Notes under the pieces: generated by a model | Told to the model about the DNA's origin: nothing | The model's database searches: none | Seen by the model: the letters and a program-made list of their open reading frames with translations, nothing else | Translations under genes and position numbers: made by a program | NCBI RefSeq assembly: GCF_000374105.1 | Contig: NZ_KB893650.1 | Coordinates: 1,048,862-1,112,861 of the forward strand | DNA length: 64,000 bases | Origin: Kangiella aquimarina DSM 16071 | GTDB taxonomy: Bacteria > Pseudomonadota > Gammaproteobacteria > Enterobacterales > Kangiellaceae | Direction of reading: 5' to 3' | Shown: positions 5,050-27,936 of the stretch, in pieces | Layout of the letters: each line of letters begins with the position of its first letter | How positions within the stretch are numbered: the first letter of the stretch is position 1

Positions 5050-6000
5050 ATGAAAATTGTTAGCGCCATAGAACAGAAATTCTTCAGCTGGGTGGATAAG
5101 AGAAGCCCTGAGCAGCAAGAAGTTCATCTTCGCCAGAAAAATATCTATATTTTACCTACCCGTTACGGCTGGCTGATGTTGATGATTCTGATTCTGATAT
5201 TGGTCGCCTCAACTAATTATCAGAACAACATGGGCTTTATGGCGGGTTTTATTCTGTTGGCGATCGGCATGCTATCGGTTTTCTATACCTACCGGAATGT
5301 GCGAGGCCTTAAAATCAGAGCCTTAAAACCGCAGTCGGTTTATGTTGGACAGGAGTGCTCATTTCCTTTTGAATTTAATAATTCATCGGAGAGTTACCGT
5401 TCTTCAATAGGTATTGGCCTGAACAAGAAACAAGTTGAATACTGTGACGTTGATTCTCGTTCTAAGACTCTCTTTCATATCAAAATCAAGGCGAACAAAC
5501 GTGGGCTGTTAGAACCAAAGCGATTCGTCTGTACCAGTATTTTCCCATTTGGCATTTTTCAGGTCTGGTCCTGGTTTAAGCCGAGTTATGGTGCATTAAT
5601 TTATCCTAAACCTATCGAATGTCCTCAGATCCTGGCACCGCAGTCTCATGGGCAGGAAGAGGGAGCCTTTGCCCAGAGAGGTTCAGAGGACTTTCATAGT
5701 CTACGAGATTATCAGTCAGGCGATCCCATCAAGCAGGTGATGTGGAAAGCTTTCGCCCGAGAGCGTGGTTTATTAACCAAAGAATTTGAAGAGTTGGTTG
5801 GTGAGCAGCACCTTCTTACTTGGGAAAGCGTCAGTCAATATGATAAAGAGTTAGCAATATCATATTTGACTGATGCAGTTATTAAGGCCGAGCAGGCTGG
5901 CAATCTGTATGGACTTGAATTACCCAAAGTTCGAATCGAAAAAGGGCAGGGCGCTGAACACTTGCATCAATGTTTAAGTGCTCTGGCTTTGATGGAATAA
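5050..6000 (+). CDS. DUF58-domain membrane protein
   Basis: The ATG at 5050 lies 10 bases after the MoxR stop; a TTG one codon earlier is possible but less likely. The 316-residue product has two membrane helices near the N-terminus (about 40-80: WLMLMILILILVAS and GFILLAIGMLSVFYTY), a beta-rich middle, and the DUF58 core with the signature GSEDFHSLRDYQSGDPIKQV near residue 225. DUF58 proteins occur beside MoxR ATPases and probably form a membrane-anchored scaffold with a degenerate von Willebrand-like domain. Co-transcription with both neighbours is supported by spacings of 10 and 15 bases. Confidence 0.85.
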   Translation: MKIVSAIEQKFFSWVDKRSPEQQEVHLRQKNIYILPTRYGWLMLMILILILVASTNYQNNMGFMAGFILLAIGMLSVFYTYRNVRGLKIRALKPQSVYVGQECSFPFEFNNSSESYRSSIGIGLNKKQVEYCDVDSRSKTLFHIKIKANKRGLLEPKRFVCTSIFPFGIFQVWSWFKPSYGALIYPKPIECPQILAPQSHGQEEGAFAQRGSEDFHSLRDYQSGDPIKQVMWKAFARERGLLTKEFEELVGEQHLLTWESVSQYDKELAISYLTDAVIKAEQAGNLYGLELPKVRIEKGQGAEHLHQCLSALALME

Positions 6001-6015
6001 AGGGCGAGCAAAACT

Positions 6016-7992
6016 ATGAATACTCAATCGCTGCCACTGACCCGCCCGGGCATTATTCCTATTTTAATTATCGTGCAAGCTATTGTGCTTTCACCCTTAT
6101 GGTTTCATCTCCCTGCCTGGATTTCAGCGTCAACTATTGCACTTCTTTTGACACGATTTGCAGTTTATAAAAAGGCCGTTCATATTCCTTCCTGGTTGAT
6201 TTTGATTTTGGCGATTTGTGCGCTTGGTGGTGTGTTTCTTTACTTCAGGACTATTAGTGGTCGTGAAGCGGGCGTTGGACTTATTAGTTTGATGTACACC
6301 TTCAAACTTCTTGAAGCAAAAAACTATCGCGACGGTGCGTTAATTTTATTTATTTCTTTTTTCATCTTGGTAACTGCATTTTTATACGACGAATCGATTT
6401 TGATGGGCGTCTATTTGCTGGTTGCAATGATGTCAATATTGATGGGGCTGATTGCGCTGAATAGTATCCAGGGTGTCGCAGGCATCCGAAATCTAGGCAA
6501 GATTTCAGGAATAACTTTACTGCAAGCATTACCGATTATGTTGATTCTCTTTTTTCTTTTTCCGAGACTTTCTGGACCTTTGTGGGCCATGCCTTCGCAG
6601 CGTGAAAGTGGTATGGGAATTGACGATGAGATGATCCCTGGTTCTATGGCTGGATTGTACGGCTTTGATGAAATTGCATTTCGAGTAGATTTTGAAGGTG
6701 AGGCTCCTCCTATCAACCAAATGTATTGGCGCGGCCTCGCGCTATCCGAGTTTGATGGCATAGCATGGAAGATAGGCGTTGAGTCTCCACTTCGAAGAGA
6801 TAGTTATCCAAAGGGCTCGCCTACTTATCAATATCGAGTTCAGTTAGAACCGCATAATCGTCGTTGGATTTTTGGTCTGGAAGATCTGATTGAACCACCC
6901 AAAGAAAAAGTCTATCTATTTAACAATTACACTTGGCGACAATCTCAGAGAGTAACCCAAAGATTACTTTATTCTGCCCAGGCTTACCAGATTGATTACT
7001 CAGATATTGAGCTATCCCAATGGCAAAGACAGCTCAATACTCAGTTACCCGAGGATAGTAATGAGCAAACAAGAGAGTGGGCAATTGAGGAGTATCAGAA
7101 AGTCAATGAGCCTGAAGAGTTTGTTCGATATGTATTAAGCCATATTCGCCAGCAGAATTATCACTATACACTTTTACCTGAAGTCTTTGAGCAGAATGTT
7201 ATCGATGGATTCTGGCTTGATAGCCGTGAGGGTTATTGTGAGCATTATGCCAGTGCCTTCGTGTTTATTATGCGTGCCGCTGGAATTCCGGCAAGAGTGG
7301 TAACCGGCTATCAAGGTGGCGAGTATAACCCCTACGGTGATTACTACATCATTCGCCAAAAAGATGCTCATGCCTGGACTGAAGTCTGGTTAGAAGGTGA
7401 GGGCTGGAGAAGGGTTGATCCTACCGCAGCTATCCATCCGTCACGAGTTGATGATTCATTGTTAAATCAAACCAGCTCAAGGGATGACTGGTTTACTGAT
7501 TTTGATAGTTTAACGACTACTGACAGTGAACTGGCTAGAACTTTTTGGCGGCAGATTAGCCTGCGCTGGGATGCCATGCAAAGCTTCTGGAACGAGAGCT
7601 TGATGGGTTATGACAAGGATATGCAGTTCAACTGGTTGTCAAAAGTAGGTATCAATAATAACCAATGGCGCTACCTAGGTTACGCTTTGCTGGCAACTAT
7701 ATTGCTGGCAGGCGCTGGCTTCGGTCTGTGGATTTTAAGTCAGGCTAAAAGTAAGGATAAGATTGAACGGGCTTACAGACGTTTCCAGCGAGTATTAGAA
7801 AAGCAGGGAGTGGATATCAGGCTTTATGAAGGTCCTAAGGATCTGCTGCATAGAATTAAGCAACAACATCCCGAGCTTTACCCAAAAGCCGAGCGAGTTA
7901 TTAAGCGATATATCTCTATTCGATATCAGAAGAGCAGGGTTTCCGAATCCAATCAGCAAAGCTTTATTAAAACTGCCAAAAGCTACCATTAG
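6016..7992 (+). CDS. TgpA-type membrane transglutaminase-like protease
   Basis: The 658-residue protein begins with five to six membrane helices (about 12-185, DUF3488), has a periplasmic domain, then a transglutaminase core with the papain-like triad Cys408 (EGYCEHYA), His452 (DAHAWTEV) and Asp468 (WRRVDPT). A further helix near 555-578 and a cytoplasmic DUF4129-type tail follow. The Pseudomonas relative TgpA is essential. The third gene of the MoxR set, it starts 15 bases after the DUF58 stop. It probably processes or crosslinks envelope proteins, but the substrate is unknown. All three catalytic residues are present, so it should be active. Confidence 0.88.
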   Translation: MNTQSLPLTRPGIIPILIIVQAIVLSPLWFHLPAWISASTIALLLTRFAVYKKAVHIPSWLILILAICALGGVFLYFRTISGREAGVGLISLMYTFKLLEAKNYRDGALILFISFFILVTAFLYDESILMGVYLLVAMMSILMGLIALNSIQGVAGIRNLGKISGITLLQALPIMLILFFLFPRLSGPLWAMPSQRESGMGIDDEMIPGSMAGLYGFDEIAFRVDFEGEAPPINQMYWRGLALSEFDGIAWKIGVESPLRRDSYPKGSPTYQYRVQLEPHNRRWIFGLEDLIEPPKEKVYLFNNYTWRQSQRVTQRLLYSAQAYQIDYSDIELSQWQRQLNTQLPEDSNEQTREWAIEEYQKVNEPEEFVRYVLSHIRQQNYHYTLLPEVFEQNVIDGFWLDSREGYCEHYASAFVFIMRAAGIPARVVTGYQGGEYNPYGDYYIIRQKDAHAWTEVWLEGEGWRRVDPTAAIHPSRVDDSLLNQTSSRDDWFTDFDSLTTTDSELARTFWRQISLRWDAMQSFWNESLMGYDKDMQFNWLSKVGINNNQWRYLGYALLATILLAGAGFGLWILSQAKSKDKIERAYRRFQRVLEKQGVDIRLYEGPKDLLHRIKQQHPELYPKAERVIKRYISIRYQKSRVSESNQQSFIKTAKSYH

Positions 7993-8035
7993 TATGGATT
8001 GCTGGCTAACCATCTTAAGCACGGGGGCGCTAACA

Positions 8036-8064
8036 CTGACAACGTAAGGGCAAGCGGGTATAAT
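8036..8064 (+). promoter_or_regulatory. Sigma70 promoter for miaE
   Basis: A -35 box CTGACA (8036-8041) and a perfect -10 box TATAAT (8059-8064) are separated by exactly 17 bases. Transcription should begin near 8071. The upstream candidate ATG at 8063 lies inside the -10 box, so this promoter decides the miaE start in favour of 8096. Confidence 0.75.
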
Positions 8065-8095
8065 GCGCCCATATTTGGCTACCAACAATGATCCC

Positions 8096-8707
8096 ATGGC
8101 TGATATCACGCCAATCCATAATTTCTTGCATTGCAAAACCCCTGCTGCCTGGCTTGAGAGAGCCACTCAGGAAATCGAAACCTTGCTGATTGATCATGCG
8201 CACTGTGAAAAAAAAGCTGCTGCAACTGCGGTTAAACTAATGTTTCGCTATCCTGATCGCATTGACCTGCTGAAGAAACTGTCGCAACTGACTCGTGAAG
8301 AAGTGTTGCACTTCGAGCAGGTACTGGAGTTTATGGAGCAACGTGATATTCGTTATCGAGCCATTAAGCCTTCACGTTATGCTGCTGGTTTGCATAAGTA
8401 TGCAAGTAAAGATGAGCCACAACGTTTAATCGATGGTTTGATTATTGGAGCCATTATCGAAGCTCGTTCCTGTGAGCGCTTCCATGCTTTGGCACCTTAT
8501 TTCAAAGATAGTGAGCCGGAGCTTTCAAAGTATTACCGCTTCTTATTAAAATCAGAGTCACGCCACTTTGCGGATTATCTGGAACTGGCGCAAAACTACG
8601 CCAAAGAGCCCATTGATGAGCGCGTGCAGTTTTTTCTTGAGAAAGAAAAAGAGCTGATTGAAAGTCCGGATAAGCAGTTCCGTTTTCACTCCGGGGTGCC
8701 CGCATAA
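8096..8707 (+). CDS. miaE: tRNA-(ms2io6A)-hydroxylase MiaE
   Basis: MiaE is a non-haem di-iron monooxygenase that hydroxylates the isopentenyl group of ms2i6A at position 37 of tRNAs reading U-starting codons. The 203-residue product has the di-iron helices: REEVLHFEQVLEFME, IEARSCERFHAL and ESRHFADYLELA carry the E and E-x-x-H ligands. Length matches the short Pseudomonas-type MiaE. I place the start at ATG 8096 (MADITPIHNFLH), because the longer frame from 8063 begins inside the -10 box. The gene precedes pepE by 28 bases and probably shares its transcript. Confidence 0.9.
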   Translation: MADITPIHNFLHCKTPAAWLERATQEIETLLIDHAHCEKKAAATAVKLMFRYPDRIDLLKKLSQLTREEVLHFEQVLEFMEQRDIRYRAIKPSRYAAGLHKYASKDEPQRLIDGLIIGAIIEARSCERFHALAPYFKDSEPELSKYYRFLLKSESRHFADYLELAQNYAKEPIDERVQFFLEKEKELIESPDKQFRFHSGVPA

Positions 8708-8735
8708 CCTAATTCCAAATTGATGGAGAGACCTA

Positions 8736-9458
8736 ATGTCACAATCATCACAACAAAAGTTATTATTACTAAGCGCTTCAAGAGAAGGGCAAACAGACTA
8801 TCTTGAGCATGCACTGCCCATGATGGATGCTTTTTTACCATCTGCAGTTAAAGAAATTCTATTCATTCCGTACGCAGGATTTGCCATGGGCTATGACGCC
8901 TATGAAGCAAAAGTCAGTCAGGCCTTGCAGCCGATTAAGCGAAAAGTAGTGTCGATTCATCAGTTCGACGATCCTGTTAAAGCAGTAGAGGATGCGCAGG
9001 CAATTGCTATCGGCGGCGGCAACACCTTTTATTTGTTGAAGCAACTTTATGACAATGAGCTAGTGGACGCGATTCGCAAAAAAGTGAATGCAGGAACGCC
9101 TTACATGGGCTGGAGCGCGGGCTCAAACATGGCTGGTCTGACGATTTGCACGACGAATGACATGCCAATTGTTCAGCCAAGAAGCTTTAACGCTTTGTCA
9201 TTGGTACCATTCCAAATTAACCCGCATTACACCGATTATCAGCCGCCGAATCACAATGGCGAGACACGTGCCGAGCGTATCTATGAGTACACTCGTGCTA
9301 ATCCTCATCGTTATGTGGTCGGCATTCCAGAAGGAACGGCACTCGAGCGTCAGGGCGATCAGTTATTCTTGCGTGGAGCTAAAGACGGTTTAATATTCCG
9401 TGACGGAGAGGGGATTAAATCCATCAAAGCAGAGAGCAATATCAGCTGGTTGTTGTAA
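8736..9458 (+). CDS. pepE: Dipeptidase E (peptidase S51)
   Basis: PepE is a cytoplasmic serine peptidase that cleaves Asp-X dipeptides. The 240-residue protein has the family core: AIGGGNTFYLLKQLY, then the nucleophile Ser127 in GWSAGSN, the FQINPHYTDY stretch and VVGIPEGTAL near the C-terminus. The layout is that of class I glutamine-amidotransferase-like folds. A good ribosome site (GGAGAG) stands before the ATG, 28 bases after miaE. No terminator is visible in the 196 bases downstream. Confidence 0.92.
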   Translation: MSQSSQQKLLLLSASREGQTDYLEHALPMMDAFLPSAVKEILFIPYAGFAMGYDAYEAKVSQALQPIKRKVVSIHQFDDPVKAVEDAQAIAIGGGNTFYLLKQLYDNELVDAIRKKVNAGTPYMGWSAGSNMAGLTICTTNDMPIVQPRSFNALSLVPFQINPHYTDYQPPNHNGETRAERIYEYTRANPHRYVVGIPEGTALERQGDQLFLRGAKDGLIFRDGEGIKSIKAESNISWLL

Positions 9459-9654
9459 CCCAGCATTTTACAATCTGCTTTTAATGCAAGAATGACCAGA
9501 AATGATGTGCTGGTAAGACCAAATAATCTTTTCATATCAATTGGTTATTGATTGCTATAGGATTGAAGTTAGCCAAGGACGGGTAACTTTTCCATAATCA
9601 TAAATTAAAGAATCCTCCTTGGTGTTAACCATATAGCATTAAGGAGATCTATCT

Positions 9655-11187
9655 ATGAACAACTGTCTAAAGTTGTGTTCCTGGTTAGGAGGAGTTGTTG
9701 TGGCCAGTTCGATGGCCGTGCTAACTTCCGGGGCCGCACAAGCATCCGATAAAGCATCCCACGATGACGAGTTACAGGGCAAAGTTCCATTTCTAACGTC
9801 CACAGCGCAAAATCTTGATCTGGCTGATTCGCCCATTCATCCTTTCATCAATTCAGCACTACCCAATCCGCCAGCAGAGGTTTATTCAGGACCACTGTTC
9901 CAGTTGCGTCATGACTACCCAAGTCAAGTTCCTTCGGGACAAACTTATCCCTGGAAGCAGGTGACCAATAATGGCCTGATAACACCTCAGAATTCCATGG
10001 CTTATGTTGAAGCTTTGAAAGACTATGTGTCTGATGATATGCGTAAGTTGCTGTACAGTTATGATCAATGGGATCCACAAAGTGAGCCATGGTGGCAGTC
10101 GATCTGGTTGGGGACTGAGCGAGAGCCCATCCATGGCTTTTATGTGGGCTCGGGTTTTCCTGCAGGCACCATGCCTGAGCAAACGTTAGATCTAACCACT
10201 TACGTTTTGACCTTGTATGATGAAACTGCAGCGGTAACCTTGGGCAACATCTGGGGCACAACCGAAGCGCAAGCTTATAAACCCAATCTGACTAGTCCGG
10301 CAGCTCAATATGCTGAAGGCAGCGTTATCGTCAAGTTTGCCTTTGTCACGCCCTGTGGCGCAGACTGGGCGCCAATGGAAGGAACGGTTGCTTGGCCGAT
10401 TTACTCGACCTTAAATGAAAGTAATGGCTCGGGAAATAATCCCAGTATTTCAAAATGTCCCAACAATGGCTCTAATGGTACAACTGCTGACCCTACCTTA
10501 ACCAATGTGTACCTCATGCAATTCGATATCATTGTTAAGGACAGTCAGGCCGCACCGCAAACCGGCTGGGTATTCTCAACACTGATTTATGATAAAAACG
10601 CACCGGGTAATGATGCCTGGGATAAGATGATTCCATTGGGAGCGACTTGGGGTGGTGATCCGGATATCATCAACACAGCCAGTACCGCATTAACACCACC
10701 GGTCACGGTCAATACCAATTTGAAACAGAACTGGATTAATCCCCAGGCACCTGCTTATGCAACGGCCACCTTGGGCTGGGACGGTCGACTATCAGGGCCT
10801 AATGATGGTGCGGTAGTAACTCCAGCTTGGGCTGGCAGCCATTATTACCCAAAAGGGTTAGCATCCGCAGGCTGTTTGGGATGTCATAGCAATGCTCAGT
10901 ACCCACAAAAGTCATTTCTATTGCCAAGCACCACCTATCCTCCGCAAGTTACCAATGCCCCAGGCTCCAGCACCAAACAGGCACTTGTTCTACATGAACC
11001 TGGTTCGAAAGGCTGGATGAAATGGTTCCAAAGTCGCTCAGGCACAGAACCGATGGATCCGGGTGATGGTCGAATTGGACTGGACTATGATATGGTCACT
11101 GCATTCAAAGCCATTCCAATGTGGCAAGCAGCGCTTGAGGCAATTCAAAAAGAAAATGCTGCTAAACCGTCATTAAAAAGAAAATAG
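9655..11187 (+). CDS. Secreted protein with a single CxxCH haem motif
   Basis: This 510-residue protein has a signal peptide ending near residue 30 (ASSMAVLTSGAAQA) and a strong ribosome site (AAGGAG). The mature part is rich in Pro, Trp, Asn and Thr and contains one c-type haem motif, Cys407-Leu-Gly-Cys410-His411, late in the chain. Two further cysteines around CGADW and ISKCP could form a disulfide. I recognise no named domain apart from the haem motif. It may be a periplasmic cytochrome c-like or haem-peroxidase-like protein in which a large domain surrounds one haem. The neighbours (pepE, a DUF924 gene 19 bases downstream) do not explain it. Confidence 0.75.
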   Translation: MNNCLKLCSWLGGVVVASSMAVLTSGAAQASDKASHDDELQGKVPFLTSTAQNLDLADSPIHPFINSALPNPPAEVYSGPLFQLRHDYPSQVPSGQTYPWKQVTNNGLITPQNSMAYVEALKDYVSDDMRKLLYSYDQWDPQSEPWWQSIWLGTEREPIHGFYVGSGFPAGTMPEQTLDLTTYVLTLYDETAAVTLGNIWGTTEAQAYKPNLTSPAAQYAEGSVIVKFAFVTPCGADWAPMEGTVAWPIYSTLNESNGSGNNPSISKCPNNGSNGTTADPTLTNVYLMQFDIIVKDSQAAPQTGWVFSTLIYDKNAPGNDAWDKMIPLGATWGGDPDIINTASTALTPPVTVNTNLKQNWINPQAPAYATATLGWDGRLSGPNDGAVVTPAWAGSHYYPKGLASAGCLGCHSNAQYPQKSFLLPSTTYPPQVTNAPGSSTKQALVLHEPGSKGWMKWFQSRSGTEPMDPGDGRIGLDYDMVTAFKAIPMWQAALEAIQKENAAKPSLKRK

Positions 11188-11206
11188 TAAAGGAAGCAAT
11201 GTCACT

Positions 11207-11773
11207 ATGAACTTAGATGATTTAACACGCGATGTGTTGGACTTCTGGTTCGGCGCGCCTGACTCAGCAGAGTTGGGCGCTGACCGCGCCATCTGGTTTC
11301 AATCCGATCCGGAATTTGACCAAGAGGTACGCGACCGGTTTGGCGAAGCACATCAGCTTGCCGCAGAAGGCAAGTTAGATGATTTGATGCAGAGTCAAAA
11401 AGGTGCTCTGGCCTTAATCATTATCCTTGATCAGTTTTCTCGCAATATTTATCGAAATCAGGGACAGGCATTTGCTACCGACCTTCAGGCTCAGCACTAT
11501 GCAGAACAGGCATTGAAACATGGTTTTGATAAAGGGCTATTAACGGTTGAGCGAAAATTCTTCTACATGCCTTTTATGCATGCAGAAGATCTGATGTTGC
11601 AGGAAAAAAGCATCGAATTGTTCATCCAATTGGGTGATCCCAATACGCTAAAATTTGCATTGTGTCACCGCGATCAGATTGTCCGTTTTGGCAGGTTCCC
11701 TGGCCGCAATCAGGCGTTAGGTAGGCAAAGCACTCCTGCAGAAGAGGCTTTCCTGAAAAATCCCTTCTGCTAA
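11207..11773 (+). CDS. DUF924 family protein
   Basis: The 188-residue product is all-helical by composition and has the DUF924 marks: DVLDFWFGAPDS at the start, the WFQSDPEFDQEVRDRFG segment, LALIIILDQFSRNIYR and HRDQIVRFGRFPGRN near the end. The family looks like a TPR-type helical fold; no biochemical role is established. It starts 19 bases after the haem-protein gene and is probably co-transcribed with it. Its stop overlaps the convergent lipoprotein gene by four bases, leaving no room for a terminator. Confidence 0.88.
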   Translation: MNLDDLTRDVLDFWFGAPDSAELGADRAIWFQSDPEFDQEVRDRFGEAHQLAAEGKLDDLMQSQKGALALIIILDQFSRNIYRNQGQAFATDLQAQHYAEQALKHGFDKGLLTVERKFFYMPFMHAEDLMLQEKSIELFIQLGDPNTLKFALCHRDQIVRFGRFPGRNQALGRQSTPAEEAFLKNPFC

Positions 11774-22215: not shown

Positions 22216-22241
22216 AGAAGCGGACTTGTTCCGCTTTTTTT
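22216..22241 (+). terminator. Terminator-like hairpin between tig and clpP
   Basis: AAGCGGA pairs with TCCGCTT around CTTGT or a shorter loop and ends in seven T. The clpP ATG follows the T-run by only about 24 bases, so a clpP promoter must lie before the hairpin or clpP depends on read-through. Confidence 0.8.
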
Positions 22242-22264
22242 ATTTTCAGGCAAGGAAATACAAC

Positions 22265-22882
22265 ATGAGTAAAATTATAGAAACTCAGGCATCTGGCCTT
22301 ATCCCAATGGTAGTTGAGCAGACCTCACGTGGTGAGCGCTCATATGACATATATTCCAGACTTTTAAAAGAACGCGTTATTTTCTGTGTCGGTCAGGTAG
22401 AAGATTACATGGCCAATTCAATTGTCGCTCAAATGTTATTCCTAGAGTCTGATAATCCAGACAAAGATATTCATTTATATATCAATTCACCAGGCGGCGT
22501 CGTAACTGCTGGATTAGCTATCTATGACACTATGCAGTTTATTCGCCCTGATGTGTCGACGGTTTGTGTGGGTCAGGCCGCCAGTATGGGTGCTTTATTG
22601 TTGGCTGGTGGTGCAAAAGGTAAGCGCCATACTCTGCCAAATTCGCGTATGATGATTCATCAACCGCTAGGCGGTTTCCAGGGGCAGGCCTCAGATATAG
22701 CCATCCATGCTCAGGAAATTACTGAATTAAAACATAGGCTTAATTCGATTATGGCCGATCACTGTGGTAAAACGGTTGAAGAAGTAGAAAAAGATACTGA
22801 CCGTGATAATTTCCTTACTGCAGATGAGGCCGTTAAGTATGGTCTGGTAGATTCAATCATCAGTTCAAGAAAGCAAAGCTAA
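22265..22882 (+). CDS. clpP: ATP-dependent Clp protease proteolytic subunit
   Basis: ClpP forms the tetradecameric serine protease chamber that works with ClpX or ClpA. The ATG at 22265 has AGGAA before it and gives 205 residues; the longer frame starts inside the tig hairpin and is rejected. The catalytic triad is Ser107 (GQAASMG), His132 (MMIHQP) and Asp181 (DRDNFL), with the same spacing as in E. coli. The N-terminus [19 protein letters not shown] includes a probable propeptide. Its usual partner clpX is not next to it but 3.8 kb downstream. Confidence 0.97.
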
Positions 22883-22904
22883 ACCCTCCTACTGTTCATC
22901 CCTA

Positions 22905-22945
22905 AACAAGCTCTTGCCTCAGGCAAGAGCTTGTTCATTTCTTTT
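22905..22945 (+). terminator. Terminator of clpP
   Basis: A perfect 14-base-pair stem (AACAAGCTCTTGCC and its complement) with loop TCA is followed by CATTTCTTTT. It lies 23 bases after the clpP stop and separates clpP from the downstream genes. Confidence 0.85.
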
Positions 22946-23095
22946 CGCACTTCATCATTATTTTAGATATCATCCAGTTTAGTGCAGCTTTTTACCTTTT
23001 TTATTGTCTAATTCTAGATAGGTTAGAATAAATAGCTGTAAGTCCAGTGTCGTTCTTGGCTTAATCAATAGGGAATCCCTTTAATTGGGGCATTT

Positions 23096-24445
23096 ATGGA
23101 TGATCAACAACGAAAATTCAGCTGGTTAGAGACTAAACTTTCCAGGATTGTCAAAATCCGTCCAGGAGAAGGTAAAAGCACCGCTTTGCATTTCCTGACT
23201 CTTTTCATACTCATGTTTTCCTATTATCTGCTTAAAGTCATCAGGGACCCGTTGATCCTTTCCGAAAGTACTGCGGAAGTAAAAAGCTACTCAACTTCAA
23301 TACAGGCGGGACTTTTGCTTTTACTGGCGCCTCTGTTCAGTAAATTTTATTTTGCCTACTCGAGAAATAACGACCATTCACGATTTATTAAAGCCGTGAT
23401 GCTTTTTTTTAGTATGAACATAATCGTCTTCGCTCTACTCAGTTATATAGGAGCTGCGATAGGCGTTATCTTCTATATCTGGTTAGGAGTGTTCAGTGTG
23501 GTTGTTATTGCTCTTTATTGGGCATTTTGCGCTGATTGCTACAGCACCGAAGCGGGTAGTCGCCTATTTATACTGATCGCCGTGGGTGGAGCTATCGGGG
23601 CATGGGTCGGATCCCGGTGTGCAGGTTGGAGCTATCAATTAATTGGGGTCACTGGTTTGATGGCGCTTTCAGCACTATTGTTGGTCATTGCAGCGCTTCT
23701 TACCACCTATTGTTTTAAAGCAGTACCTTCAGATTCCAGGTCTATCTCATCGGCAGAGCCAATAAAGTCTCAGAAGTGGTACCTTGCAATAGTAAAGCTT
23801 TTGAAAAAACCATATTTATCTCTTATCGCAGCATTTATTGTGCTGATTAATTTTATAAACTCAATGGGGGAGTACATTTTAGCCAAGTTTGTTGTAGAGT
23901 TTGCTTCAGGTCTTGAGCTAGTAGGCGAAGACAGGCAGTCATATATGACAGAGTTTTATGCTGGTTATATTGCATGGATAACACTATTTGGACTTCTTTT
24001 GCAGATTTTTCTCGTTGCAAAGATATTTAAATGGATTGGTGTGGGAGCTTCTATATTAATTCTGCCTACCTTGATGATGTTTAATTACACTTTGGTGCTA
24101 TACCTACCGGTATTTGCTCTAATTAAATGGACTCTGATTGTAGAAAACAGTGCTAATTATTCTATACAGAATACCACCCGGCATGCTCTTTTTCTGCCTA
24201 TATCGAGGGAAGATAAATATATCGGAAAGAATGTCATTGAAGGATTCTTTTATCGTTTTGGTGACTTATTATATGGTGCAGTAGTTGCCATTGGCGTCAC
24301 TTTTTATGCCGCCGATAAAATTGCTTTTATCATGCTTAATGCTTTACTGGCATTTGGCTGTTTCCTCATTGCTTTTAGGATTAGAAACCGTTATAGAGAC
24401 ATGGAGGACGAGATCTATTGGTCGACAAAAAACGGTAATAGTTAG
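23096..24445 (+). CDS. ATP/ADP-translocase-like nucleotide carrier (Npt/Tlc-like, MFS fold)
   Basis: The 449-residue protein has 11-12 membrane helices. Its N-terminus fits the nucleotide-transporter group first known from Rickettsia, Chlamydia and plastids: IRPGEGKSTALHFLTLF then LLKVIRDPLILS, where the charged KxxRD pair in helix 1-2 is conserved. Such carriers exchange ATP for ADP in parasites, but shorter free-living versions exist with unknown substrates, and this one could import or export nucleotides or something else. It has no obvious promoter and sits alone between the clpP terminator and the convergent phosphatase-kinase gene, inside a block that is otherwise conserved. Confidence 0.7.
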   Translation: MDDQQRKFSWLETKLSRIVKIRPGEGKSTALHFLTLFILMFSYYLLKVIRDPLILSESTAEVKSYSTSIQAGLLLLLAPLFSKFYFAYSRNNDHSRFIKAVMLFFSMNIIVFALLSYIGAAIGVIFYIWLGVFSVVVIALYWAFCADCYSTEAGSRLFILIAVGGAIGAWVGSRCAGWSYQLIGVTGLMALSALLLVIAALLTTYCFKAVPSDSRSISSAEPIKSQKWYLAIVKLLKKPYLSLIAAFIVLINFINSMGEYILAKFVVEFASGLELVGEDRQSYMTEFYAGYIAWITLFGLLLQIFLVAKIFKWIGVGASILILPTLMMFNYTLVLYLPVFALIKWTLIVENSANYSIQNTTRHALFLPISREDKYIGKNVIEGFFYRFGDLLYGAVVAIGVTFYAADKIAFIMLNALLAFGCFLIAFRIRNRYRDMEDEIYWSTKNGNS

Positions 24446-24470
24446 TGGTCGTATATATGCTGACCACTAA
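24442..24470. other. Dyad carrying both stop codons of convergent genes
   Basis: TTAGTGGTC (24442-24450) and GACCACTAA (24462-24470) are perfect complements with an 11-base loop. The left arm holds the stop TAG of the carrier and the right arm, on the other strand, the stop TAG of the phosphatase-kinase gene. No T-run follows, but the hairpin could define both 3' ends. Confidence 0.55.
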
Positions 24471-26362
24471 TGATTCTGACCATAAAGCTGCAATAATTTA
24501 TCTCGCCTTTTCAACAGAGCCACTATCTGTTTATCATTCAACAGGAAACCTAGTTCAGCCTTGAGGTTATCCTTAGAAAGAGACTTTAACTGTTGCTCTA
24601 ACTGAACGGATAGTTTAGCCACCGGAGGGAGATCATATTCCGGTAACGTGTATAGGTTACGGAAGCTTCGGGTATGATCAATGAGCCATAAATAACCAGT
24701 ATCTAAGCTATAAAGTTTATTGCCTGTATTTCTGTCGTCATTATGAATCAGCAAATCGAATATTTGCATTAACTCTTCTTCATCATCAGCCGAGCAGTAA
24801 CCCTCTAACTGCTGCTTACTTTGGATAAGTTCAGTTTTGCTGATAGAGTCTTCAATCCAATATTGAATGATGCCTTCTTGATCTTTGTAGGTAAAGGCTG
24901 CTGTATACGGAACCATGTATAAATTTAAAAGCCTATCCAGTTTGAAGGCTGCCAGATCATATAAAAAACGATCGGCAAAATTATCCTGACGAGAATGCTT
25001 TCTTTTATTTTCCAGTTTTGGATCGCTATCCATGTATTTAAAAATTGCATTGTGTTGTTTCCCCTGGAAATCAAAAGTTAGCTTTAATGGTTTGCTGTAA
25101 AAGTCTGATAATGGTTTTTCAGAAATAACTTCAGCATTTGCAAAATATTCAGATAGATACTCATCACTCAACTGGTTTGGATACAAAGGCTTTCTAACTG
25201 GATCCGGCTGTGGTTCTGTATTACTTGGATCTTTAAGATTAACTAACCGGAGCTGGTTATTTTCGATTACTGCGGCTGTGGGCTGGCCTTTATAGTATGC
25301 CTGTAGCATGCCTGTATCCAAAAGAATCAATTTTCCATCAAAACGGGAGCGTGCAACTCGGCTATCATCTGGGGTGTGGCCAACAAGAACTTGCTTAACA
25401 CCAAAGTGTTTTAAGGCTTTTTCTATGGTATGGCTTTCCATATATTCATGACAATAAATGTTGCCACGATACCAGACTGGTCCCTTTGTCGTAATTAATA
25501 GAGATTGAGAAAGCTCTATAAACTCCTCTGCTTTTTTCAATATACTTCTTTTGGTAAATCTATCCTGTTTAATCTGGCCAGCTAGTAGTGCCTCCAGAAC
25601 CTCGATTCTTTCTCGCTTATTGAAATAATGCTTAAATAATCCCAGCTCTATGAATTCGTGATAGAGCTCAGAATAGGACTTAACAGTCTGGCGAATCTGA
25701 CGGTTGATCTGTTGCTCGCTAAAACCAAGGTCGAGTAGCTCTTCAGAGATACCTGCGTGTAGATAAAGTCGATCCTGAAAAACTTTGACCGTATCCTTCT
25801 CAAGTAGCCATTTGCCATATTTGCCCGAATGGGAGTAGGCCTCAACCAGACCAAAATATCCGGGTGGATATAGCCGATTGAAGCTTTTCAGGCTTTCGCT
25901 GGAATGCTCAAGATTAGAGTAATTTAGATAGTCCTGGTAGACCGACTCACGATAGCTGGCAGATTCTTCTGGTTTGAAAGCAAGAAACTCCTGGTCAGAG
26001 ACATAGCGAAGATCAGCAATGATGTTCATGATTTCATGATTGCCAAGAAGAACTATGACATTTCCACCACTATTGGCGGCCTCATCTTCAAGTCTCATAA
26101 ACAGGTCGATGACTTTGCGTGATTCTGCACCTCGGTCAAGATTATCCCCCAGACTTATCAAGGTAGCCGTATTACCGCTCCATTCCAGCTCGTCATTGAT
26201 TACATTTGTGGCCTTAAGCAAACTGATCAGCGAGACATAGTCACCATGCACATCGGTTAATACTACAGTTTTACTTTGCACTGGGTTTGCATTGAGCAAT
26301 CCACTAAATATTAAAGTGAATATCAGCAATGTCTTAATTACTATCGATTTGGTATGGCTCAT
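24467..26362 (-). CDS. Secreted PPP-type phosphatase fused to a PI3/4-kinase-like domain
   Basis: The 631-residue protein starts with a signal peptide (hydrophobic about 9-24, cleavage near ANPVQS). Residues 31-375 form a Shewanella-like (Shelph) PPP metallophosphatase with DVHGD (37-41), GDNLDRG (72-78), GNHE (107-110), LHAG (His202) and GHTP (His329). Residues about 400-600 match a PI3/4-kinase-like or HipA/Fam20-like kinase fold: Lys442 in AIFKYMD as the ATP lysine, an acidic helix ending NLYMVP, IIQYWIED, the catalytic-loop-like HNDDRNTGN (Asp543, Asn548) and the metal site LIDHTRSF (Asp562). Both active sites look complete. It would act in the periplasm; target and nucleotide source are unknown. 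Confidence 0.72.
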   Translation of the reverse strand: MSHTKSIVIKTLLIFTLIFSGLLNANPVQSKTVVLTDVHGDYVSLISLLKATNVINDELEWSGNTATLISLGDNLDRGAESRKVIDLFMRLEDEAANSGGNVIVLLGNHEIMNIIADLRYVSDQEFLAFKPEESASYRESVYQDYLNYSNLEHSSESLKSFNRLYPPGYFGLVEAYSHSGKYGKWLLEKDTVKVFQDRLYLHAGISEELLDLGFSEQQINRQIRQTVKSYSELYHEFIELGLFKHYFNKRERIEVLEALLAGQIKQDRFTKRSILKKAEEFIELSQSLLITTKGPVWYRGNIYCHEYMESHTIEKALKHFGVKQVLVGHTPDDSRVARSRFDGKLILLDTGMLQAYYKGQPTAAVIENNQLRLVNLKDPSNTEPQPDPVRKPLYPNQLSDEYLSEYFANAEVISEKPLSDFYSKPLKLTFDFQGKQHNAIFKYMDSDPKLENKRKHSRQDNFADRFLYDLAAFKLDRLLNLYMVPYTAAFTYKDQEGIIQYWIEDSISKTELIQSKQQLEGYCSADDEEELMQIFDLLIHNDDRNTGNKLYSLDTGYLWLIDHTRSFRNLYTLPEYDLPPVAKLSVQLEQQLKSLSKDNLKAELGFLLNDKQIVALLKRRDKLLQLYGQNH

Positions 26363-26667
26363 GGGTCTGCCTCTAATATAGTTACTTCGTTTCCGATACC
26401 GAGCGCTTTAAATATTAAGGATATTAGCATAAGTATAAGTTGGTGCTAATTTGGCTGCAGAGGTTCTGGTTACTGTGGATTAGACAGTAAGTGAAGGGAT
26501 TTGTGCTTTTGTTAGAGTAATTATTTTGATACTGTAATTAGTAGCGAGAAATAAAATGAGTGCCAGACCTTGAGTTTCGGAGGTTTAGCCTCAATAAAGC
26601 GTGATAGAAACGCCTTTTGGCGGTGGAAATGTCTAACGGACTGTAGTGACAGTCTTATGAGGTAACG
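26363..26667. other. Divergent control region before clpX
   Basis: These 305 bases hold no convincing gene. They must contain the promoter of the phosphatase-kinase gene (minus) and of clpX (plus). The only clear candidate is the heat-shock-like promoter at 26570-26596. A ribosome site (GAGG) lies just before the clpX ATG. Confidence 0.6.
26570..26596 (+). promoter_or_regulatory. Possible sigma32 promoter for clpX
   Basis: CTTGAG at 26570-26575 matches the sigma32 -35 core CTTGAA except the last base, and CCTCAAT at 26590-26596 resembles the -10 CCCCATNT with mismatches, 14 bases away. The position, about 70 bases before the clpX ATG, is suitable. The match is partial, so this is a tentative call. 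Confidence 0.4.
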
Positions 26668-27936
26668 ATGAGTAGCGATAACTCAGACAACAAAACGTTA
26701 TATTGCTCTTTCTGTGGCAAAAGCCAGCATGAAGTAAAGAAGCTCATTGCCGGTCCAAGAGTTTTTATATGCAATGAATGCGTAGATTTATGTAACGATA
26801 TAATTATTGAAGAGATTCAGGAGGTTGCTGCAAAAGAATCGCGTAGCCACCTACCTAAGCCAAAAGAAATAGCTGAATTTTTGGAGCAGTATGTCATTGG
26901 CCAGGAACGCGCCAAAAAAGTATTGTCTGTAGCTGTTTACAATCACTACAAACGATTAGAAAGTGAGCCTGCTTCCAGCGAGCATAAAGAAGTTGAGCTG
27001 GGTAAAAGTAACATCCTTCTAATTGGTCCAACAGGTAGTGGTAAAACCCTGCTTGCTGAGACTTTGGCTCGCATGCTCGATGTGCCATTTACCATGGCAG
27101 ATGCGACAACCTTGACTGAAGCCGGTTATGTGGGTGAAGACGTCGAGAATATCATTCAGAAATTGTTGCAGAAGTGTGATTATGACGTTGAGAAAGCTCA
27201 GCGCGGAATTGTTTACATTGACGAAATTGATAAGATTTCTCGTAAATCCGACAACCCCTCTATTACGCGTGATGTTTCAGGTGAAGGTGTTCAACAAGCT
27301 TTGCTTAAACTGATTGAAGGAACTGTTGCATCCGTGCCTCCGCAAGGCGGTCGCAAGCACCCGCAGCAGGAGTTCCTGCAAGTTGATACTGGAAATATCT
27401 TATTTGTTTGTGGCGGTGCTTTTGCAGGCCTTGAGAAGATCATTCAGGAACGCACCGAAAAAGGCGGTATCGGTTTCGGTGCTGACGTTAAGCAGGTTAA
27501 AGAAGGTAAGGCTATTGGCGAAATGCTCAAAGCCGTCGAGCCTGACGACTTAGTGAAGTTTGGCCTGATTCCTGAGTTTATTGGCCGGTTACCAATCGTT
27601 ACAACTTTGCAGGAGCTAGATGAAGACGCCTTAATCAGAATCCTGACAGAGCCAAAAAACGCACTAACCAAGCAATATAGTAAATTGTTTTCATTGGAAA
27701 ATGTGGATTTAGAGTTCCGCAAAGATGCGTTGTCTGCTATTGCTCATAAAGCTATGCAGCGTCGCACAGGTGCTCGTGGTTTACGCTCTATCCTTGAAGA
27801 AATTTTATTAGACACCATGTATAACTTACCTTCCCTCGAAGGCGTCAGCAAAGTATGTATTGATGCGGCTGTGGTAAAAGGTGAGGCAGAGCCTCTACTG
27901 ATTTATGACAACCAACAACAAGCTGCTGCTGAGTAG
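26668..27936 (+). CDS. clpX: Clp protease ATP-binding subunit ClpX
   Basis: ClpX is the hexameric AAA+ unfoldase that feeds tagged proteins to ClpP. The 422-residue protein has the N-terminal zinc-binding domain (Cys13, Cys16 and a later CNEC pair), Walker A GPTGSGKT, Walker [11 protein letters not shown], the GYVGEDVE pore loop and the ClpP-contact loop with an IGF-type tripeptide (GGIGFGAD). Length matches the family (about 424). It is not adjacent to clpP here, and needs its own promoter. A terminator-like hairpin follows before lon. Confidence 0.97.

Follow-up and report, generated by a model that had tools for sequence, protein, structure and literature searches.

An exported fusion of a Shelph-type phosphatase and a kinase-fold domain in Kangiella aquimarina and its linkage to an NTT-like carrier gene

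Introduction

AceK, a bifunctional kinase/phosphatase of the cytoplasm, combines opposing activities within one chain. The bacterial periplasm is generally held to lack ATP, and kinases are therefore not expected there. PI4KII, HipA/HipT and CtkA are not known to be exported to the periplasm.

In the Shelph phosphatases, an (I/L/V)D(S/T)G motif replaces SAPNY (PMC535813). The FAM20 kinases are exported and contain four conserved disulfides (PMC5865150). A paper on the Legionella pan-kinome regards FAM20 as eukaryotic/metazoan (PMC9758233). The actinobacterial family TIGR03843/SCO1664 is linked to mycothiol genes (PMC4255298); in the literature searched, SCO1664 is mentioned a single time and no function is given. 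NTT carriers import nucleotides in parasites and plastids, and those of free-living bacteria are widespread and functionally uncharacterised (PMC5381601).

Here, a gene of Kangiella aquimarina is described that joins the folds of a phosphatase and a kinase in one exported protein. It would resemble AceK in its proposed pairing of opposing activities. However, the two proteins are unrelated; AceK is cytoplasmic, whereas this protein is exported and has two separate domains. The component folds are known. No description of a Shelph-kinase fusion, or of a link between such a fusion and an NTT gene, was found in the open literature searched, which is not proof of novelty. New are the asymmetric decay of the kinase, the NTT linkage, the tandem split operons and the paired cysteines. 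We lean towards reading the locus as a periplasmic reversible-phosphorylation module, in which an exported two-headed enzyme would be fed ATP by its own carrier.

Architecture and distribution of the fusion

The gene is located in a window of 64,000 nucleotides, the whole stretch of DNA that was analysed. Unless a locus is named, positions refer to this window.

24467..26362, (-) strand: exported phosphatase-kinase fusion gene, 631 aa, ATG start, with orthologous fusions in other genomes
26288..26362, (-) strand: probable signal peptide, residues about 1-25 (MSHTKSIVIKTLLIFTLIFSGLLNA), an export-type hydrophobic N-terminus in a hydropathy scan
25208..26278, (-) strand: Shelph-type PPP phosphatase domain, residues 29-385, assigned by Pfam Metallophos, PDB entries 2z72/1v73 and a VIA fold match
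24470..25177, (-) strand: atypical kinase-fold domain, residues 396-631, assigned by the domain model, VIA and a profile match to FAM20A

An earlier note had proposed a secreted fusion of a PPP phosphatase and a PI3/4-kinase-, HipA- or Fam20-like domain. This proposal is supported by structure models, a conserved export signal and about 80 orthologous fusions. The N-terminus is hydrophobic and, on inspection of the sequence, of the Sec type; 77 of 79 fusion relatives have an export-type hydrophobic N-terminus in the hydropathy scan. The full-length AF2 model has a pLDDT of 93.2 and a pTM of 0.89. The fusion of a phosphatase and a kinase fold in one exported chain is real, and this chain is conserved in at least 79 other loci. 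A chance match of motifs is ruled out by the folds of both halves, because the N-terminal half passes Pfam Metallophos and the model of the C-terminal half is a kinase fold.

The full fusion is present in 22 of 61 relatives. An alignment-based scan of GTDB genomes confirmed 367 relatives, 80 of which were fetched by a ranking that favours full-length matches, and 79 of these 80 are uninterrupted fusions. The uninterrupted frame rules out a sequencing or annotation artefact. The fetched fusions belong to Gammaproteobacteria (Kangiella, Halieaceae, Woeseiaceae, Steroidobacteraceae), Acidobacteriota and Myxococcota. When the class was sampled evenly, just 2 of 276 genomes carried the fusion, which is therefore rare and patchy. 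For free-standing kinase-only relatives, the same 276 genomes gave one weak match. When the window protein was used as a single-sequence query of genome contigs, nothing was confirmed, whereas the alignment query did find relatives. Viral contigs gave two weak phosphatase matches only, and therefore no link to phages is seen.

One Acidobacteria MAG (JAJDNV01) contains two divergent copies of the fusion (L104 and L105). A divergent, kinase-dead fusion (L100) is present in a record titled Klebsiella pneumoniae MAG; its position in the tree suggests a mislabelled bin.

The phosphatase domain

All phosphatase motifs listed in the earlier note are present, namely DVHGD (residues 37-41), GDNLDRG (72-78), GNHE (107-110), His202 and His329. 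The N-terminal half matches Pfam Metallophos (5.9e-12), and its nearest solved proteins by sequence are the Shewanella cold-active phosphatases 2z72/1v73 (1.2e-26). Comparison of the phosphatase domain with 1v73 by VIA gives a Z of 31.2 and an r.m.s. deviation of 2.3 (264 aligned residues). The PPP metal ligands D37, H39, D73, N108, H202 and H329 are invariant in all 74 aligned relatives. The LDTG motif of the Shelphs is found at residues 348-351, with D349 and G351 at least 90% conserved. Furthermore, about 91 residues separate GNHE from the H(A/G)G motif (HAG in the fusion), which corresponds to the Shelph-type insert. The fusion thus shares the metal ligands, the motif, the insert and the fold with 1v73/2z72. 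The matched structures have no kinase domain, whereas in the fusion a kinase-fold domain follows the phosphatase.

The kinase-fold domain

The isolated kinase domain was modelled by AF2 with a pLDDT of 88.6 and a pTM of 0.88. The best structural match by VIA is PI4KIIbeta (Z 18.6, r.m.s. deviation 3.7, 223 aligned residues). Fam20 structures are in the range of 15-17 (hydra Fam20 17.4, DrFam20C 17.1 and a third Fam20 match 16.1), and lower values are obtained for CtkA (14.5), HipT (12.2) and HipA (10.6). The kinase fold previously predicted for the C-terminal half is borne out by this model and its matches, and at the level of a predicted structure the assignment stands; a model lacking such a fold had been named beforehand as evidence against the proposal. 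PI4KII, HipA/HipT and CtkA share the fold but are not fused to a phosphatase, and their sequence similarity to the fusion is below the family cut-offs.

The kinase motifs named earlier, Lys442, HNDDRNTGN (540-548) and LIDHTRSF (560-567), were also found. The putative functional residues align with FAM20A as follows.

25037..25039, (-) strand: Lys442, putative ATP-binding lysine in AxFK, aligned with KAMFK of FAM20A
24719..24745, (-) strand: catalytic loop HNDDRNTGN, residues 540-548, with the putative catalytic Asp543 and the putative metal-binding Asn548, aligned with GNMDRHHYE of FAM20A
24674..24685, (-) strand: LIDH, residues 560-563, with the putative metal-binding, DFG-like Asp562, aligned with HLDN of FAM20A

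A profile built from 26 kinase-half sequences and run against the PDB matches FAM20A/B/C with values from 3.9e-12 to 1.1e-8. Individual values are 3.9e-12 for FAM20A, 3.9e-10 for hydra Fam20 (a xylosylkinase), 7.2e-9 for FAM20C and 5.8e-5 for PI4KIIbeta. The profile aligns AxFK, AAxxLDRxLxxxxVPxT, the catalytic DR and the metal-binding Asp with FAM20. The catalytic set of Lys, Asp, Asn and Asp, including the HNDDRNTGN loop and LIDH, is invariant among diverse kinase-intact members, and the window protein keeps it in full (Lys442/Asp543/Asn548/Asp562).

The kinase half alone does not reach the Pfam gathering scores of HipA_2 (PF20613; 16.4 vs 27 bits), PI3_PI4_kinase (PF00454; 14.9 vs 27.1 bits) or Fam20C (14.5 vs 26.8 bits). 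The nearest curated model is TIGR03843 (8.6e-9), with a score of 35.1 bits, far below its cut-off of 172.4 bits; the linkage to mycothiol genes belongs to that family. PADLOC returned only a marginal match (0.001) of 52 residues of the kinase half to a candidate-defence model. The four conserved disulfides of FAM20 are absent, as the kinase half contains one Cys only. Membership in FAM20 proper was rejected because neither the Pfam cut-off is reached nor the four disulfides are present. The fusion further differs from FAM20 in being bacterial and joined to a phosphatase.

The kinase half may perform another ATP chemistry, such as AMPylation (SelO), glutamylation (SidJ) or the phosphorylation of a small molecule or lipid, and not the reversible phosphorylation of the phosphatase's target. 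According to literature cited in PMC7948968, AMPylation and glutamylation occur on kinase folds. PI4KII, which matches the model most closely, phosphorylates a lipid, Fam20B phosphorylates a sugar (PMC5865150), and NTT-like carriers could bring different nucleotides. However, the residues and their order match the phosphotransferring sites of FAM20 and PI4K, and a fused phosphatase suits the removal of phosphate better than that of AMP. Such a chemistry is unlikely, and reversible phosphorylation is the preferred reading.

Asymmetric decay of the kinase site

Lys442, Asp543, Asn548 and Asp562 are all intact in 29 of the 74 relatives, and at least one of them is lost in the other 45. In the same alignment the phosphatase ligands are never lost. 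The kinase changes between the intact and the decayed state at least seven times on the phosphatase-domain tree, and three of these changes are forced by well-supported branches. Relatives that do not conserve the HNDDRNTGN and LID residues had been named as evidence against the earlier proposal. Taken literally, 45 of 74 are such relatives, but the losses are lineage-specific, and the catalytic residues are kept in the window's own clade. Comparison of the window fusion with L002 gives dN/dS values of 0.064 for the phosphatase half and 0.091 for the kinase half, that is, both are under purifying selection. Between the kinase-dead fusions L013 and L014, selection on the kinase half is relaxed (0.184 vs 0.086 for the phosphatase half).

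The Aliikangiella locus L059 is a compact operon with two copies of the fusion. In copy 1 (5956-7815) the phosphatase is intact and the kinase site is lost, whereas copy 2 (9572-11281) has lost the phosphatase ligands and retains an intact kinase site. An NTT gene (7832-9505) sits between them. The gene order is the same in L061/L029, with a phosphatase-live/kinase-dead copy, the NTT gene and a phosphatase-dead/kinase-live copy. This split of the live sites suggests, from the pattern of retained residues, that both activities are selected for at the tandem locus. In genome G026, a phosphatase-degenerate, kinase-intact paralogue (L027:1066-2832 (+)) is found on a different contig from the intact fusion L019.

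The frequent decay of the kinase residues beside an invariant phosphatase, and the retention of the domain after loss of its catalytic site, would fit an exported phosphatase whose C-terminal half is a pseudokinase with a regulatory or structural role, and whose whole function is phosphate removal. In the window's clade, however, the full kinase set is under purifying selection. The tandem paralogues keep kinase residues and lose phosphatase ones, and a phosphatase-only function predicts otherwise. The term pseudokinase describes many relatives best, but not the window protein; as a general account of the locus a pseudokinase is unlikely. For the window protein, the addition and removal of phosphate is plausible, since its kinase residues are kept under purifying selection in its clade. 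This does not extend to the whole family.

A CotH-like neighbour of kinase-dead fusions

A secreted protein with the pattern GNTDxS...CCHN...PYDFD adjoins 19 of the 45 kinase-dead and none of the 29 intact fusions. Members of this family (about 350 aa, GNTDxS...CCHN...PYDFDxxG) are encoded at L062:4734-5810 (-), L107:4781-5839 (-), L100:7201-8259 (+) and 16 other loci. The match to Pfam CotH is weak (0.0012 in 2 of 13). Alignment with the kinase half of the fusion by hhalign yields a probability of 9%, though the catalytic loops align. The association with dead kinases maps to few changes on the tree. The family may be a separate exported kinase that took over.

A conserved pair of cysteines

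The protein has two cysteines, one in each domain.

25451..25453, (-) strand: Cys304, phosphatase domain
24794..24796, (-) strand: Cys523, kinase domain, probable inter-domain disulfide partner of Cys304

In 74 sequences, both cysteines are present in 60 and both are absent in 14; one alone never occurs. The pair is present in all 25 nearer sequences, even in copies with one dead enzyme half. Its presence or absence corresponds to a single change on the tree, and the pair is therefore conserved and not an instance of repeated co-evolution. Judged from this pattern, an inter-domain disulfide Cys304-Cys523 is probable in the exported protein.

The NTT-like carrier

The genes clpP and clpX are normally adjacent. 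The fusion gene is located between them, and the gene convergent to it encodes an NTT-like protein.

23096..24445, (+) strand: NTT/ADP-ATP-carrier-like membrane protein, 449 aa, convergent, 21 bp from the stop codon of the fusion

The NTT-fusion pair thus parts clpP from clpX (22226-27936), at a site that is shared throughout Kangiella. A profile of the neighbour family matches the solved ADP,ATP carrier 9j3n with 1.6e-26. The best member of the family matches Pfam TLC with 3.6e-20, and the window copy scores 18.6 bits, under the cut-off of 21. Transport by AtNTT1 depends on the charges K155, E245, E385 and K527 (PMC10654386). In the profile alignment, read by eye, the carrier has Arg for K155, Glu for E385 and Lys for K527, and does not retain E245; therefore its substrate may not be ATP. 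Compared to the NTT/TLC carriers of Chlamydia, plastids and free-living bacteria, the protein differs in its genetic tie to an exported kinase/phosphatase. Furthermore, many fusion-adjacent copies have a C-terminal domain of about 100 aa resembling dystroglycan-type cadherin/He_PIG (e.g. L031:7865-9514 (-)), which the window copy lacks. In Halieaceae, two divergent NTT-like genes adjoin the fusion (L037:7886-9214 (+) and 9205-10821 (-); similarly L040, L041 and L048).

NTT-like genes are the commonest neighbour family of the fusion and occur in several arrangements. They lie beside 16 of 29 kinase-intact vs 4 of 45 decayed fusions (Fisher p 2.4e-5), an association that rests on few independent events. 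Among the four decayed loci, L059 and L061 have a live kinase in tandem, L109 keeps both Asp residues, and L091 is a true exception, with an adjacent NTT and a dead-looking kinase. Within the flanks examined, 13 of the 29 kinase-intact loci have no NTT. The live kinase of L034/G039 has none in its vicinity. At the clpP-[NTT]-fusion-clpX site of Kangiella, loci with a live kinase (L002-L010, L031) have the NTT. Those with a decayed kinase (L011/L032, L013, L014) lack it, and there clpP abuts the fusion. The tree of the relatives forces at least three kinase losses. The NTT is missing in two of them; in the third, a tandem copy retains the kinase and the NTT stays. Phylogenetically independent contrasts of kinase state and NTT comprised too few pairs for significance.

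Of the 22 relatives that carry the fusion, 17 have a close NTT orthologue, in every case next to the fusion gene; the 39 relatives that lack the fusion have none. Any NTT gene is present in 61 of 64 fusion-bearing genomes vs 58 of 274 non-carriers of the class; because the carriers cluster taxonomically, p-values for this co-occurrence are inflated. By kinase state, any NTT gene occurs in all 26 intact-kinase genomes searched and in 35 of 38 kinase-dead genomes, so that presence at the genome level tracks the fusion and not the state of its kinase. The close subfamily is found in 18 of 26 intact-kinase vs 3 of 38 kinase-dead genomes; the profile used to find it was derived from copies next to a fusion, almost all of them at loci with an intact kinase. 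The kinase state is tracked only by adjacency and by this subfamily. The suggestion that the ATP/ADP-carrier-like neighbour is meaningful gains support from the repeated linkage and from the disappearance of the NTT alongside kinase decay.

A nucleotide- or phosphate-scavenging locus, with an exported phosphatase, a nucleotide importer and an incidental kinase half, would agree with the import by NTT relatives in parasites and plastids and with the company of any NTT in most genomes, kinase live or dead. It is very unlikely, as absence of the adjacent NTT at the syntenic Kangiella site goes with decay of the kinase and not of the phosphatase, and the literature treats Shelph relatives as protein phosphatases rather than nucleotidases (PMC535813).

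Proposed function and implications

In the preferred reading, reversible phosphorylation in the periplasm, the fusion would be Sec-exported to the cell envelope as a two-headed enzyme. The N-terminal Shelph-type metallophosphatase would take phosphate off a target, and the C-terminal FAM20/PI4KII-like atypical kinase would put it on. A single chain, probably pinned by the Cys304-Cys523 disulfide, could thereby set the phosphorylation state of a shared extracytoplasmic target, which could be a protein, a glycan or a lipid. The convergent NTT-like carrier would supply ATP by exchange of cytoplasmic ATP for periplasmic ADP. Compared to the NTTs of intracellular parasites, the proposed net direction of ATP is reversed. 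Like FAM20C, the kinase would need ATP carried into an extracytoplasmic compartment, and the proposed role of the carrier resembles the Golgi ATP supply. The complete picture, an envelope module of a disulfide-linked exported kinase and phosphatase with an NTT-type ATP exporter as the bacterial counterpart of FAM20C and its Golgi ATP supply, is tentative, and we give it slightly less than an even chance.

The locus suggests that reversible phosphorylation driven by ATP can proceed outside the cytoplasm of some bacteria. A conserved exported kinase/phosphatase with a relative of nucleotide carriers would make the question of periplasmic ATP testable in a culturable marine genus. The natural losses, of kinase and NTT together and in complementary tandem copies, point to gene pairs for comparison. 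The finding could also assign a role to the NTT genes of free-living bacteria (PMC5381601) and could provide the kinases of the secretory pathway with a relative in bacteria.
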